A stretch of DNA of 39,081 nt from assembly GCA_025062375.1 (NCBI GenBank), contig JANXAG010000016.1:1-39081 (forward strand), given 5' to 3'. Of the stretch, positions 12,037 to 18,551 are shown one piece after another. The notes below the pieces were generated by a model. That model was not told the DNA's origin, did not search any database, and saw nothing but the letters and a program-made list of their open reading frames with translations. The DNA is from Anaerolineae bacterium (GTDB lineage: Bacteria > Chloroflexota > Anaerolineae > SpSt-600). The position numbers and the translations under genes are program-made. Within the stretch, counting starts at the first letter, position 1; the number at the start of each line of letters is the position of its first letter.

Positions 12037-12249
12037 ATGGAAAGCTTGAAATCTGGAAACAAAACGGGGTTGATGGTGGATCCGGTCAGGTGCAGGGCAT
12101 GCGCGAAGTGCTTGGCCAGAAGGGTGTGCAGAAGCAAAGCCCTGGTTCAGGTAGATCCAGGGGAACCACCCTTTGTGGATCCGAGCCGGTGTTACGGTTG
12201 CCTTCTTTGCGTTGTAGAGTGCCCATTTGATGCTATTATACCTTACTGA
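12037..12249 (+). CDS. Two-cluster [4Fe-4S] ferredoxin-like protein
   Basis: About 70 aa with two Cys clusters, CRACAKCLARRVC and CYGCLLCVVECP. The second is a standard CxxCxxCxxxC-P motif; the first has a slightly longer last gap. It is probably a small electron carrier or a cluster-binding partner of the thioredoxin-type proteins encoded after it. The start is uncertain: GTG 12034, ATG 12037 and ATG 12073 (giving MVDPVRC, the common ferredoxin start) are all possible, and only a weak AAGGGG (12019-12024) precedes them. The stop lies 11 bp before the selenoprotein gene. Confidence 0.8.
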   Translation: MESLKSGNKTGLMVDPVRCRACAKCLARRVCRSKALVQVDPGEPPFVDPSRCYGCLLCVVECPFDAIIPY

Positions 12250-12260
12250 AAGGAGGAACG

Positions 12261-12677
12261 ATGGCCCAGCTTTTTAGAGAGAATTTACCCATTATCGTGA
12301 TAGCTCTCATCCTCATAGCGGCATACCTTCTCCTCAGGACCCGGCCCAGTCCTGTGGAGTCTATGGAAGAGTTCAACGCTCTTATAACGGGTGGCAATCC
12401 TGTAGTGGTGGAACTTTTCTCCAATGCCTGAAGCGCCTGCCTTCTATCAAAGCCCATCGTGGATGGGCTGGAGAGAAGACTTGCAGGCAAAGCCTCTCTG
12501 GTGAGGCTGGACGTATGGGGAAAGCCAGGCCGGGATTTAGCCTCTAAATACGGGATAAGGGCTGTTCCCTCTTTCCTCATCTTTGACGGCAAGGGGAATC
12601 TGGCAGGATATTACGTTGGCATTCCTGACCAAAAGGCTATAATAGAGGTGATAGAAAGCCTGAACAGGGGGGATTAG
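12261..12677 (+). CDS. Candidate selenoprotein: membrane-anchored thioredoxin-like protein (UxxC)
   Basis: Reading the in-frame TGA at 12429-12431 as selenocysteine gives a 138-aa protein: an N-terminal membrane segment (about 9-27), then a thioredoxin fold. The TGA is codon 57 and replaces the first Cys of the redox site, giving Sec57-Ser-Ala-Cys60 after VVVELFSNA. The frame stays open and thioredoxin-like on both sides (VVVELF; VRLDVWGKPGRDLASKYGIR; AVPSFLIFDGKG with the cis-Pro). AAGGAGG at 12250-12256 serves ATG 12261, but nothing comparable serves a start after the TGA. A strong hairpin follows the TGA (separate entry). trxB begins 3 bp after the stop. A truncating nonsense mutation is the alternative, but it would not explain the exact CxxC position or the hairpin. 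Confidence 0.85.
12435..12488 (+). promoter_or_regulatory. Putative bacterial SECIS element of the thioredoxin-like gene
   Basis: The apical stem AGCCCATC (12451-12458) pairs perfectly with GATGGGCT (12462-12469) around a GTG loop. Below it CTTCT pairs with AGAAG (12441-12445/12474-12478) and GCCTGC with GCAGGC (12435-12440/12483-12488). The loop begins 27 nt after the TGA and starts with G, which fits known bacterial SECIS rules (loop 16-37 nt downstream, G in the first two loop positions). Confidence 0.75.
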
Positions 12678-12680
12678 GCC

Positions 12681-13634
12681 ATGGACCTATACGATGTCAT
12701 AATCATAGGTTCGGGGCCGGCAGGGTTAAGCGCAGCCATCTACTCCGCCAGGTCCGCCCTTAAGACTCTGGTTATAACCGGGAGAGCCATAGGAGGACAG
12801 GCAGCTCTTACGGCTGAAATTGAGAATTACCCTGGCTTCCCGGAAGGTATCTCGGGAATGGAATTGACCCGCCTCATGCAGGAGCAGGCCAAAAAGTTCG
12901 GAGCAGAAATCCAGATGGATGAAGTCCTCTCGGTGAACCTTAGAGAACATCCTTTCACCGTTACCACTTATTCCGGAGATTACCGGTGCAAAGCCCTTAT
13001 CATTGCCACCGGCGTTTCTCCCAGAAAGCTCGGAGTGCCAGGGGAGGAAGAATTCATAGGTCGGGGTGTTTCTTTCTGCGCCACCTGCGATGGGTTTTTC
13101 TTCAAAGACCAGGAAGTGGCTGTAGTGGGGGGCGGAGATAGCGCCGTGAAAGAGGCCCTTTACCTTACCCGTTTCGCCCGCAAGGTATACATAATCCACA
13201 GACGAGACCAGCTCCGGGCTGAGGCCATAATTCAGGAAAGGGCGCGCCAGAACGACCGTATTGAGTTCGTTTTAAATTCTATCGTAACCGAAATCGTGGG
13301 AAAGGAGAAGGTGGAGGGGGTCAGGATCAAGAACCTCAAAACCGGCGAGGAATCTTTCCTGAAAGTGGATGGAGTTTTTGTCTACATCGGGAACATACCC
13401 AACACTTCTCTGTTCCAGGGACAACTGGAGTTGGACGAGCAGGGCTATATCGTAACCGACAGGGCAATGCATACCAGTGTTCCCGGGGTATTTGCGGCGG
13501 GAGATGTTCAGGAGAGGATTTTAGCCCAGGTGGTGACGGCTGCGGCATCGGGAGCCATAGCGGCCATGGAGGCGGAGAAATTCATCGCCCACCTTGAAGG
13601 AAGGGAGTATCCGGGGAAAGAGTGGAGGGGTTAA
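12681..13634 (+). CDS. trxB: Thioredoxin reductase
   Basis: Protein of 317 aa, the full family length. It has the N-terminal FAD motif [12 protein letters not shown], redox site C133-A-T-C136, the NAD(P)H-binding [18 protein letters not shown], and the C-terminal [13 protein letters not shown] motif. It passes electrons from NAD(P)H to a thioredoxin-type partner, here most simply the Sec-containing protein encoded 3 bp upstream. AGGGGGG at 12665-12671 precedes the ATG. The stop overlaps the convergent DUF2085 gene by 4 bp. Confidence 0.95.
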
Positions 13635-14401: not shown

Positions 14402-15147
14402 TTTTTGTAAACCCCTACCAGGTGAACTTTTCGCCCGGGAGGGATGAACCTTTCTATAAGAACGCTCGCGCGGAAGGAAAGCCTGTTGAAGGCCAAGTAC
14501 GTGGGGTCCTCTATCACAAGCAGAGAGACCTTTTTCAGTCCGACTTTTGAGGCTTCCTCTTCGATTTTAGATGGGGTGTTAGCGCGATAGTAGGGGTAGA
14601 AGACATCCTGGCTTTGGCGCCCGTAAAGGCTCGCCACAAGGGCTCGTTGCAGGAATAACCCGGCTCTGGCTACTTCGCGGCCGAAACGGGGAATTGGGTT
14701 CAGCAGGTTAGGAGTGAGGAATATAAAGTGGCCTCCCGGTTTCAGCACTCTGGCTATTTCCCTGAAGGTTTTCTCTGGCTCGGCCAGGTGCTCCAGAACC
14801 CAGCTGCATATCACCAAGTCAAAGGAACCAGACAAGAAAGGGAGAATTTCCGCCCGGGCCTGGATCCGGAAAATGGCCGGTGCTCTATGTTCTCGCAGTG
14901 AGGCCCAATCGTAATCTACCCCAACGGTAAGGGCAGTCCGGGGGTGAAGGCGCTCCATGATCCCTCCTCGGCCACAGCCCAGATCCAGAACTCTCACCCC
15001 CGGACCAAGGTAAGAAGCCACAATTTCCTGATAAACCTCGGTGGAAGGTTTCCACCCAGGCTTTAAAGTTCGGTATAAGGCTCTGTAGTATTCTTGCCTG
15101 TCTTTCAGAGGCACTGGGAATACCCGCAGTTCCGGCAGATAACGCAT
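14398..15147 (-). CDS. Class I SAM-dependent methyltransferase
   Basis: About 249 aa. Motif I is VLDLGCGRGG; GVDYDW (motif II) and DLVICSWVLEHLAEP (motif IV region), followed by ARVLKPGGHFIFLTPN, are typical of the UbiE/Methyltransf_11 group acting on small molecules or lipids. The substrate is not readable. The start is ambiguous: ATG 15147 overlaps the end of nrdJ by 43 bp, GTG 15114 by 10 bp, and neither has a good ribosome-binding site. It is probably translated by coupling to nrdJ. Confidence 0.82.
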   Translation of the reverse strand: MRYLPELRVFPVPLKDRQEYYRALYRTLKPGWKPSTEVYQEIVASYLGPGVRVLDLGCGRGGIMERLHPRTALTVGVDYDWASLREHRAPAIFRIQARAEILPFLSGSFDLVICSWVLEHLAEPEKTFREIARVLKPGGHFIFLTPNLLNPIPRFGREVARAGLFLQRALVASLYGRQSQDVFYPYYRANTPSKIEEEASKVGLKKVSLLVIEDPTYLAFNRLSFRASVLIERFIPPGRKVHLVGVYKK

Positions 15148-18100
15148 CCCTCGCTGTATTCCAGAAGGCTCCCGCAATCCGGACACTCGGGAGAAAGCCC
15201 GAAATCAAAGGTTGAGGAAGTTTTTGATGTTGTGGGTGCTCCTGATACCTGTTGCCCCTCACCTTTTTGAGCTTTCATGTGCCGCTCCATCGCCTTCGCT
15301 ATAGCGTCAGCACAGGAGAGGATGGGGCCACCATCATGCCAGGTGGGGGCTGGGCACCTTATCCCTTTGAGCTGCTTGACTATAGCTTGGGGGTTTATCC
15401 CGCTCCTGAGGGCCAGGGATATAAGCCGACCTATAGCTTCCGACTGGGAAGCGACACATCCACCGGATTTGCCCACTTGGAGGAAAACTTCACACAGCCC
15501 TATTTGGTCCTCGTTCACGGTAACGTAGAGGTTACGGCCGCAGCCCAGAGGTATTTTCTCGGTAGTGCCATGGGTGACAAGGGGGCGAGGCCTGGGGGAT
15601 AGCACCCCAGGAAGGCCCGGCTGGGCAGCTCTGACCTCCTCTTTCTTTTCCTCAACTCCTACGTTTAATACTTGTGCCTCCCGGCTGCGGTCCCGATACA
15701 GGGTCACCCCTTTGCATCCCAGTTCATAAGCCAGCAGGATAGCTTTCTCCACATCCTCTAATGTTGCCTCAAAGGGCAGGTTTATGGTCTTGGAAATGCT
15801 GTTATCGGTCCAGCGCTGGAAAGCCGCCTGCATCCGGACGTGCCACTCCGGGGCTATATCCAGGGCTGTGACGAAAACCCGGCGCACATCGGGCGGTATC
15901 TCCTCTATATCTTGGATCCGGCCTTTTTCCGCTACCTTCCTCATGATTTCAAGGTTGTAAAAACCTCGCTCCTTAGCCACCTTTTCAAAAAGGGGGTTTA
16001 TTTCAGGAAAGGCATCTTCGTCCAGGATATGCTTGCGGGTGAAAGCCAGGGCAAAGATGGGCTCAATGCCCGATGAGCACCCGGCTATGATGGAAATGCT
16101 CCCAGTAGGGGCAAGAGTGGTGGTGGCGGCATTGCGGATACCGTGCTCCTTTATGCGCTCCACAAGCCCTACCCAGTCAAAACTGGAAGAAGAAGTTCGT
16201 GGGTCGGGCAGCGGAAGTTTGCCCTCGGGGTAGATGGAGCCTCCGAAGGCCGGGAAGGGCCCCCGTTCTCTGGCCAGTTCCACCGAGGCCTCCTTGCTCC
16301 AGTAAGCTATGGCTTCCATAATCTTTTCAGCTACCTCTAAGGCCTCTTCGGAGTCATAGGGTATCCCGAGTTTTATGAGCATATCGGCAAAACCCATAAC
16401 TCCAAGGCCGATTTTACGGGTCCGCAGCGTCGCTTCCTTTATCTGGGGGAGAGGGAATTTGTTCACGGTGATGACATTATCCAGAAAGCGAACTGCCAGC
16501 TTGACCGTCCGCTCCAGCTTTTCCCAATCAATACGGCCGTCGTCCGTAACCATATTGGAAAGGTTTATGGATCCGAGGTTGCAGGATTCGTATGGGAGGA
16601 GGGGTTGTTCACCGCAGGGATTTGTGGATTCAATTTTCCCCAGGTTAGGAGTGGGGTTGAATTCGTTTATCCGATCAAGGAAGACTACACCGGGTTCGCC
16701 GTTGCGCCAGGCCCCTTCCACGATTTTGTTGAAAACCTCTCTCGCCCTCAGGCGCCTGACTACTTCTCCATTGCGGGGGTTTATGAGCTCATATTCCCCG
16801 TCTTCCCTCAGAGCCTGGATGAAGCGGTCCGTTATAGCCACGCTTATGTTGAAGTTGGCGAAGGCCCCTTCTTTCTCTTTGCAGGTGATAAATTCCAGGA
16901 TATCAGGATGATCCACCCGCAGGATGCCCATGTTAGCCCCGCGGCGGCGGTTGTGCACCAGAAAGCCGTTGGCCACGAATTCGGCCCCCGTCACCTCTAT
17001 GTCCATGGTGTAGGCTCTATCTTTTTCTACATCTGTAACGCGAGTGTAATAGAGATTGCTCCGCAAGAGTTCATCTCTGGGCTGAAGGCCATTGCGGACG
17101 CCTGAAGCTCCGGTAAGTTTTTCTTCCAGGCGCTGTCTCTTGAGTTCGCTTCGGAACCCTATTGTTCTGGCAAAATGCAGGAGGCTTGGCCTGTGAGATA
17201 TCCTCAGCTCATAAACGGGCTTCCCGCCCTTCTTCCTCTCAGCGGCTCGTGAGACGATCCCGAGCGCCAGGAGGAGTTGCTGGACCTGCTCAATGAGTTC
17301 CTTTGAGGGGTTACGAAGGCGAACGTGCCCTTTCGGGGAAACATCCCCATTGCCTTCAAAGAGCCCCCTCAGGAAAGCCCGCACACTTTCAGGGGAAGCT
17401 GTGAGGATGAGGGCGGGAATTCCAGCGCGGGCGGTCCCTTCTTTGTTCAGTCCAGCTTCCTGCCACCACTCAGCCAGAGCAGCATTGCGAGCTACAATCA
17501 GGGATGAGGCATGGCCTTTCTTCTGCCCCCTGGCAGGGTTCAGGCCGAACTTCCGCAAAGCCTCTTCAAGCCATTTTTCTACATCCGGTGTGTTGCAAGG
17601 CGCATGGAAAACCAGGCATTCCGGCTTCCCGTTCGGAGCGGAAAGAGAGCCATTTGCGATGAAATAACCCACCAGCTCCGCCAAATCCGGATTCATCCTA
17701 TCGGGCAGGGTGATGGGGGTGACATCGTGATGCTCAAGGGGGCAGGGTGGAAGGGAAGCATCGTGCCCGGTATACCCTCCTAACCTCACCACGAGCCTGT
17801 CGCCTGGTTTTACCTTCTCCGCGGCTTTCCACTCAATTCGCCCATCCTCTGTAACCACCCGGACCAGATGGTTATAGGTGGCCTCCAGATACAGGCCCAG
17901 GTCTGTTCTTATGCGGTAAACTTCAGCGGTGCCGTTATCCTGAGCGAGGAAGGCAGGTTCAAAGCCATCGCGCCCCAATACTTCCTCATTCAGGGGGTTA
18001 TCCCCCATCGGAGGAGCGTTAAGGAACGCTCCGAGCCTCTGAAGACCCCTGGTGGTTCGGACCCATGTCCTGACCGAGAGGCATCCACCCTGTTTTATCA

Positions 18101-18551
18101 CATCGGTGGCGGTATCAAAGACTCGCATGAAACTCACCGGACCAGAAGCGATCCCTCCGGTGGAACGGACTACATCGCCTTTGGGGCGCAGGCGGGAGAA
18201 GCTGAAACCCGTGCCTCCGCCCGACTGGTGAATGAGGGCTGTGGCTTTCACAGCCTCAAAAATGCTGGACATATCATCATCCACCGGGATTACAAAACAG
18301 GCGCTTAGTTGTCCCAGAGGAGTGCCGGCGTTCATCAGGGTTGGGGAGTTGGGCAGAAAATCAAAGCTGACCATAAGCTGGTAAAACTTTTCAGCCCACT
18401 CTTCCTTCCGAGATTCCTCAGCCTCAGCCACGGCTTTGGCCACCCGGCGAAACATTTCCTCGGGTGTTTCTATAACGTTGCCTTTCTCATCCTTCCTCAA
18501 GTAGCGCTTTTTAAGAGTAGCTGCGGCGGCGGGTGAAAGCTTAAGGGTCAT
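15105..18551 (-). CDS. nrdJ: Class II (B12-dependent) ribonucleotide reductase interrupted by an intein
   Basis: Reading frame of 1148 aa; removing the 378-aa intein (residues 157-534) leaves 770 aa, normal for NrdJ. It reduces ribonucleotides to deoxyribonucleotides using adenosylcobalamin, so it works with or without oxygen. Visible features: PNSPTLMNAG near the N-terminus with C84 after LSA, the loop motif NPCGEQ with C646 and E648 (C268/E270 after splicing), APTGSIS, and a C-terminal TSCPD-type domain ending in a Cys-rich zinc ribbon (CPDCG, CVICRNCG). AAGGAGGGG precedes ATG 18551. It lies 22 bp after the flavoprotein gene, too short for a riboswitch of its own; control is probably through NrdR at the operon promoter. 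Confidence 0.95.
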   Translation of the reverse strand: MTLKLSPAAAATLKKRYLRKDEKGNVIETPEEMFRRVAKAVAEAEESRKEEWAEKFYQLMVSFDFLPNSPTLMNAGTPLGQLSACFVIPVDDDMSSIFEAVKATALIHQSGGGTGFSFSRLRPKGDVVRSTGGIASGPVSFMRVFDTATDVIKQGGCLSVRTWVRTTRGLQRLGAFLNAPPMGDNPLNEEVLGRDGFEPAFLAQDNGTAEVYRIRTDLGLYLEATYNHLVRVVTEDGRIEWKAAEKVKPGDRLVVRLGGYTGHDASLPPCPLEHHDVTPITLPDRMNPDLAELVGYFIANGSLSAPNGKPECLVFHAPCNTPDVEKWLEEALRKFGLNPARGQKKGHASSLIVARNAALAEWWQEAGLNKEGTARAGIPALILTASPESVRAFLRGLFEGNGDVSPKGHVRLRNPSKELIEQVQQLLLALGIVSRAAERKKGGKPVYELRISHRPSLLHFARTIGFRSELKRQRLEEKLTGASGVRNGLQPRDELLRSNLYYTRVTDVEKDRAYTMDIEVTGAEFVANGFLVHNRRRGANMGILRVDHPDILEFITCKEKEGAFANFNISVAITDRFIQALREDGEYELINPRNGEVVRRLRAREVFNKIVEGAWRNGEPGVVFLDRINEFNPTPNLGKIESTNPCGEQPLLPYESCNLGSINLSNMVTDDGRIDWEKLERTVKLAVRFLDNVITVNKFPLPQIKEATLRTRKIGLGVMGFADMLIKLGIPYDSEEALEVAEKIMEAIAYWSKEASVELARERGPFPAFGGSIYPEGKLPLPDPRTSSSSFDWVGLVERIKEHGIRNAATTTLAPTGSISIIAGCSSGIEPIFALAFTRKHILDEDAFPEINPLFEKVAKERGFYNLEIMRKVAEKGRIQDIEEIPPDVRRVFVTALDIAPEWHVRMQAAFQRWTDNSISKTINLPFEATLEDVEKAILLAYELGCKGVTLYRDRSREAQVLNVGVEEKKEEVRAAQPGLPGVLSPRPRPLVTHGTTEKIPLGCGRNLYVTVNEDQIGLCEVFLQVGKSGGCVASQSEAIGRLISLALRSGINPQAIVKQLKGIRCPAPTWHDGGPILSCADAIAKAMERHMKAQKGEGQQVSGAPTTSKTSSTFDFGLSPECPDCGSLLEYSEGCVICRNCGYSQCL
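16950..18083 (-). other. Intein in nrdJ with a LAGLIDADG-type endonuclease domain
   Basis: 378 aa inserted between KQGG and RRRGANMG. Splicing blocks look intact: C1 in CLSVRTWVRTTRG (block A), T-x-x-H in ATYNHLVRVV (block B), MDIEVTGAEF (block F) and VANGFLVHN ending in His-Asn (block G). The residue after the Asn is Arg (codon CGC at 16949-16947), not Cys, Ser or Thr. The central part has two LAGLIDADG-like helices, LAELVGYFIANGSL and RAFLRGLFEGNGDV; in both the catalytic Asp is replaced by Asn, so cleavage activity is probably lost. Confidence 0.9.

Follow-up and report, generated by a model that had tools for sequence, protein, structure and literature searches.

A gene of 138 codons at positions 12261-12677 of the 39,081-nt Anaerolineae contig analysed here (the window; coordinates refer to its forward strand unless stated otherwise) very probably encodes a small membrane-anchored thioredoxin with selenocysteine (Sec) in its active site. 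Conservation of the codon, a SECIS hairpin, the Sec machinery, the fold and the anchor are all established at the level of sequence, and Sec would be inserted at codon 57. Chloroflexota are abundant and mostly uncultured bacteria, and the finding assigns to them a conserved Sec-using thioredoxin. Routine gene prediction would cut it short, as none of the NCBIfam models reaches its cut-off with the family, the window protein included. Furthermore, the many Sec/Cys replacements, with SECIS elements kept or decayed and selA and selB lost, provide a natural series for the exchange between Sec and Cys.

The reading frame and its thioredoxin domain

The frame 12261-12677 ends in a TAG stop (12675-12677) and was found uninterrupted except for a TGA at 12429-12431, which is codon 57 and the first position of the CxxC motif, as the first-pass annotation had recognised. 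The active-site motif USAC (Sec-Ser-Ala-Cys) occupies 12429-12440, with the resolving Cys60 at 12438-12440. A Shine-Dalgarno sequence, AGGAGG at 12251-12256, was read directly 4 nt 5' of the ATG, in agreement with the ribosome-binding site described earlier for this upstream start. Mechanical ORF calling splits the gene into a 56-aa ORF before the TGA and a 72-aa ORF after it.

Residues 9-26 (12285-12338) form a predicted hydrophobic helix that would serve as an N-terminal membrane anchor, and a hydrophobic 19-mer was present at the N-terminus of 96 of 105 homologues. The thioredoxin domain spans residues 34-132 (12360-12656), as indicated by Pfam, invariant alignment columns, AlphaFold and Foldseek. 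Pfam Thioredoxin (PF00085) matches these residues with 39.2 bits against a gathering threshold of 23.5, and the match runs across the TGA, so that the earlier description of a fold intact on both sides of it holds. Thioredoxin and Thioredoxin_2 were the only Pfam matches of the window protein, and a Redoxin or AhpC-TSA domain was searched for in Pfam but not found. The cis-Pro position, P103, is invariant in the family alignment, as are both redox residues. The AlphaFold model, built from a two-sequence alignment, reached a pLDDT of 87 and a pTM of 0.75; Foldseek searches with it returned solved thioredoxins at E about 1e-8 with a TM-score to the target near 0.8. Both hallmarks of a thioredoxin, the fold (as modelled) and a cis-Pro facing the CxxC, are seen in the window protein.

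Codon conservation, SECIS hairpin and selenocysteine machinery

Among 150 related genomes, nearly all strong matches carried exactly one in-frame TGA. A family profile built from 23 members (alignment A1) detected the family at E <= 1e-18 in 138 of 396 Anaerolineae genomes and in 55 of 400 genomes sampled from Chloroflexota, the weakest of these matches possibly including ordinary thioredoxins. The codon at the site had been proposed at the outset as a check on the reading; all 107 distinct Chloroflexota members have either TGA (79) or a Cys codon (23 TGC and 5 TGT) there, with no other codon. The protein tree implies 6 or more switches between Sec and Cys on branches with good support, and 12 by parsimony. 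The family signature is SNxUxxC...KPxVDxxE, and the active site of the main family reads SNx[U/C]xxC. Searched with this one sequence, genome contigs yielded a single named relative, an Anaerolineae record (L048). No relative was found in viral contigs, and only ordinary thioredoxins, with partial coverage, were found on plasmids among the matches listed.

Two groups of loci were also noted. A divergent branch carries a QSP-x-U-IxC motif (L089, L090, L092, L093, L097, L098, L102-L104, L106 and L148), and its next gene downstream falls into one cluster with a SAM-dependent methyltransferase. The loci L033, L056, L064 and L139 have a related methyltransferase-like gene on the upstream side. The second group, family f50 within Anaerolineae (L110-L113, L115 and L117-L120), contains Cys forms without selA and selB, and in several of its loci trxB, a disulfide-oxidoreductase-like gene, OsmC and a cupin are located upstream of the thioredoxin gene.

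A strong hairpin follows the TGA. RNA folding of the 62 nt from the TGA gave -30.6 kcal/mol (z = -4.2), and none of 200 shuffles was as stable. The whole three-tier stem spans 12435-12488, in which two lower tiers lie beneath the upper stem AGCCCAUC-GUG-GAUGGGCU (12451-12469), formed by pairing of AGCCCAUC with GAUGGGCU around a 3-nt apical GUG loop (12459-12461). The strength of this hairpin had been noted correctly, but the hairpin itself does not start 27 nt after the TGA as first stated; that distance belongs to the loop. In the bSECIS model quoted in a 2026 catalogue (PMC13188914), a loop of 3-9 nt with G in the first two positions followed by G/U, at 16-37 nt from the UGA, caps an upper stem of 4-16 bp with an MFE <= -7.5. 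The window hairpin, with its 3-nt GUG loop, 8 bp, 27 nt and upper stem of -12.9 kcal/mol, falls within this model in loop, stem, spacing and MFE, which bears out the bacterial SECIS geometry proposed earlier. A search of Rfam for known RNA elements returned tRNA only.

Covariation and a synonymous-codon test support the upper stem. Among the 79 TGA forms, the loop position is GUN in all 79, and the 8-position upper stem contains a mean of 7.29 standard pairs (minimum 6) against 5.40 +/- 0.10 (maximum 5.84 in 2000 trials) in a null in which synonymous codons were randomised using the family's own codon usage. The 28 Cys forms, with a mean of 3.96 pairs vs 3.92 in the null, stand at background. 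As judged from these alignments, the hairpin is under selection only in TGA forms, beyond the need of coding for protein. Compensatory changes were observed at two stem pair positions (G-C 44 / A-U 32 and C-G 55 / U-A 20), and some of them involve replacement of the amino acid, for example Ile/Val and Gly/Arg. Conservation is confined to the upper stem and does not extend to the full stem, and the folding energy of the whole hairpin discriminates weakly, being slightly more favourable than in the synonymous null (mean z -0.57). In two Cys forms nested among TGA forms, L064 (genome G266) and L121 (genome G167), 7 of the 8 pairs of the upper stem persist, as would be expected had Sec been exchanged for Cys recently; these hairpins look like remnants of such an event.

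In a draft assembly of 94 contigs, a TGA one base away from TGC or TGT might stem from faulty sequencing or assembly, or from a recent nonsense mutation in a pseudogene. This explanation is exceedingly improbable and is refuted by the comparative data, in which 79 distinct homologous sites of separately assembled genomes share the TGA at this codon, the remainder of the frame is conserved and the hairpin is selected in TGA forms only.

The genome of the window (2.15 Mb, 95% complete) encodes all of selA, selB, selC and selD, the machinery that had been named as a further check. The tRNA-Sec (selC) carries the anticodon UCA, and the proteins score above their cut-offs, SelB with 356 bits (cut-off 242), SelA with 590 bits (cut-off 268) and SelD with 374 bits (cut-off 125). 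SelB was detected in 67 of the 79 verified TGA genomes, and SelA in 10 of the remaining 12; among the 28 Cys genomes, SelB was detected in 13, and SelA in just one of the remainder. At least one of the two proteins is therefore found in 77 of 79 TGA genomes vs 14 of 28 Cys genomes (Fisher p = 3e-8, a value that overstates the evidence owing to the kinship of the genomes). The SelD of the same genome (L050), located on contig C19 of that genome (C19:27743-28678, minus strand), has an in-frame TGA at the motif CAGUAGK, and a hairpin with a 3-nt GUC loop 33 nt after this TGA resembles the GUG loop of the thioredoxin; SelD itself is predicted to be a selenoprotein.

An in-frame TGA within a conserved protein might also reflect reassignment of TGA as an ordinary sense codon, or a readthrough without Sec. 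This is hardly credible and is excluded in practice by the comparative data, as TGA terminates the upstream ferredoxin gene and several homologues of the selenoprotein gene, the internal TGA alternates with Cys codons only, and the genome encodes the full Sec machinery, including tRNA-Sec(UCA), which across genomes goes together with the TGA form.

Gene neighbours, electron donor and membrane side

Upstream of the selenoprotein gene, a small 4Fe-4S ferredoxin-like gene of the Pfam Fer4 family (12037-12249) ends in a normal TGA stop, and 11 nt separate this gene from the ATG. Downstream, trxB for thioredoxin-disulfide reductase (12681-13634; TIGR01292, 433 bits, above cut-off) begins 3 nt after the stop and probably lies in the same operon. 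This adjacency had suggested a dedicated reductase, a reading that the comparison supports in part. Such an arrangement does recur, with trxB in 14 of 106 loci when wider flanks were taken, but it is not constant; in the first homologue set, with 1.5-kb flanks, trxB was directly downstream only in the sister species. Classical trxA was found directly upstream in 20 loci (WCxPC motif seen) to 28 loci (clustering) of 106, and other neighbours over the 106 loci include a CsoR-type repressor (17), OsmC (10) and a protein disulfide oxidoreductase-like gene (10). These neighbour counts are minima, part of the loci having a flank of 1.5 kb only. As a general rule, trxB as a fixed operon partner was rejected, since the adjacency is absent from most loci; the linkage to the thioredoxin system, as seen in gene order, is real, yet not fixed.

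Two further observations concern the surroundings. The CsoR-type metal-sensing repressor near the selenothioredoxin, in 17 loci including L070, L079, L133, L134, L141, L144 and L151, hints at metal- or persulfide-responsive regulation. Elsewhere in the window, an adenosylcobalamin-dependent ribonucleotide reductase (15105-18551, minus strand) is encoded in a frame with an apparent intein; the matches to ribonucleotide reductase are interrupted, and intein-containing models match around residues 350-480.

In the established chemistry of thioredoxins, the first Cys of CxxC is the attacking residue and the second the resolving one. For the window protein a mechanism is proposed in which the ribosome would read UGA codon 57 as Sec. 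SelB would bind the hairpin, with its loop 27 nt beyond the codon, and bring in Sec-tRNA(Sec) supplied by the action of SelA and SelD. In the product, a single N-terminal helix would hold at the membrane a thioredoxin domain with the active site Sec-Ser-Ala-Cys. Disulfides of the substrate, or oxidised groups of another type, would be attacked by the Sec57 selenolate, Cys60 would resolve the mixed selenosulfide, and the Sec-Cys bond would be reduced again, probably by the NADPH/TrxB/Trx system, genes of which recur beside the selenoprotein gene. TrxB, or Trx fed by TrxB, is a rather probable electron donor. Since the W and GP found in WCGPC thioredoxins are missing from its active site, the protein may have a different redox partner.

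An extracytoplasmic thioredoxin domain would be ill suited to direct reduction by cytoplasmic TrxB, and a selenoprotein acting outside the cytoplasm in the manner of membrane-tethered TlpA/ResA, with no direct reduction by TrxB, is a possibility of appreciable but lesser weight. The single N-terminal anchor and the inconstancy of trxB as a neighbour agree with it, as does the charge bias at the helix across the family, where 1.55 K/R per 8 residues before the helix vs 0.70 after it points to an N-in/C-out orientation and weakly favours a domain outside the cytoplasm. Against it, the window protein carries Arg on both sides of the helix, leaving its own orientation signal ambiguous, and Pfam assigns the domain to PF00085 thioredoxin, with neither Redoxin nor AhpC-TSA among its matches. 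Furthermore, the gene neighbours trxA, trxB, the protein disulfide oxidoreductase-like gene and OsmC are cytoplasmic redox genes and suggest a cytoplasmic domain. TrxB or Trx as donor is the reading preferred here, and the domain may face either side of the membrane.

A broader interpretation, tentative and somewhat doubtful, regards the protein as an ancient, Chloroflexota-wide, membrane-tethered Sec thioredoxin, possibly extracytoplasmic, in which Sec has repeatedly changed to Cys and whose function is unlike that of soluble thioredoxin. If so, this old tethered subfamily might serve, for example, in electron transfer to membrane or envelope targets, and Sec-to-Cys changes would often have gone along with loss of the Sec machinery, with remnants of the SECIS still to be recognised.

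Comparison with known thioredoxin-like proteins

The literature searched, which included few subscription papers, yielded no description of the family for selenoproteins of Anaerolineae or Chloroflexota, and the name Chloroflexota was absent from the recent selenoprotein reviews searched for it. SaoT (NF040730) and the HUIPC type (NF047660) resemble the window protein as UxxC thioredoxin-like selenoproteins, but neither NCBIfam model matches it, even at E 0.1.

TlpA/ResA proteins have one N-terminal anchor and Redoxin/AhpC-TSA domains. The window protein shares the thioredoxin fold and the single N-terminal anchor with these oxidoreductases but differs in that neither domain was detected in it, and its motif is UxxC rather than the UGC of the catalogued TlpA selenoprotein family. 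With classical TrxA it has in common the fold, the cis-Pro, two redox centres and the genomic link to trxB and trxA. It differs from the WCGPC type in carrying Sec for Cys, in an active site devoid of Trp and Gly-Pro and in its membrane anchor, and it scores 45.5 bits with the TrxA equivalog TIGR01068, below the NCBIfam cut-off of 96.8. A WCGPC thioredoxin is also encoded in the same genome (contig C14, L002).

The closest comparison is with Sec-thioredoxin. Trx (PF00085, UxxC) is listed as an experimentally verified selenoprotein family with the representative WP_010956703.1 (PMC13188914), and the window protein resembles it in the thioredoxin domain, in Sec for the attacking Cys of CxxC and in a bacterial SECIS after the UGA. 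In contrast to that family as catalogued, the window subfamily has an N-terminal membrane helix, and SNxUxxC...KPxVDxxE in place of W-U/C-G-P-C. The first-pass annotation had called the selenoprotein new; this holds for the subfamily but not for the kind, UxxC thioredoxins being established (PMC13188914). In conclusion, the novelty is moderate: a known kind of selenoprotein is represented here by a membrane-anchored subfamily unreported in the searched literature, which by its sequences is distinguished by the anchor, the SNxUxxC...KPxVDxxE signature and the Chloroflexota-wide spread.
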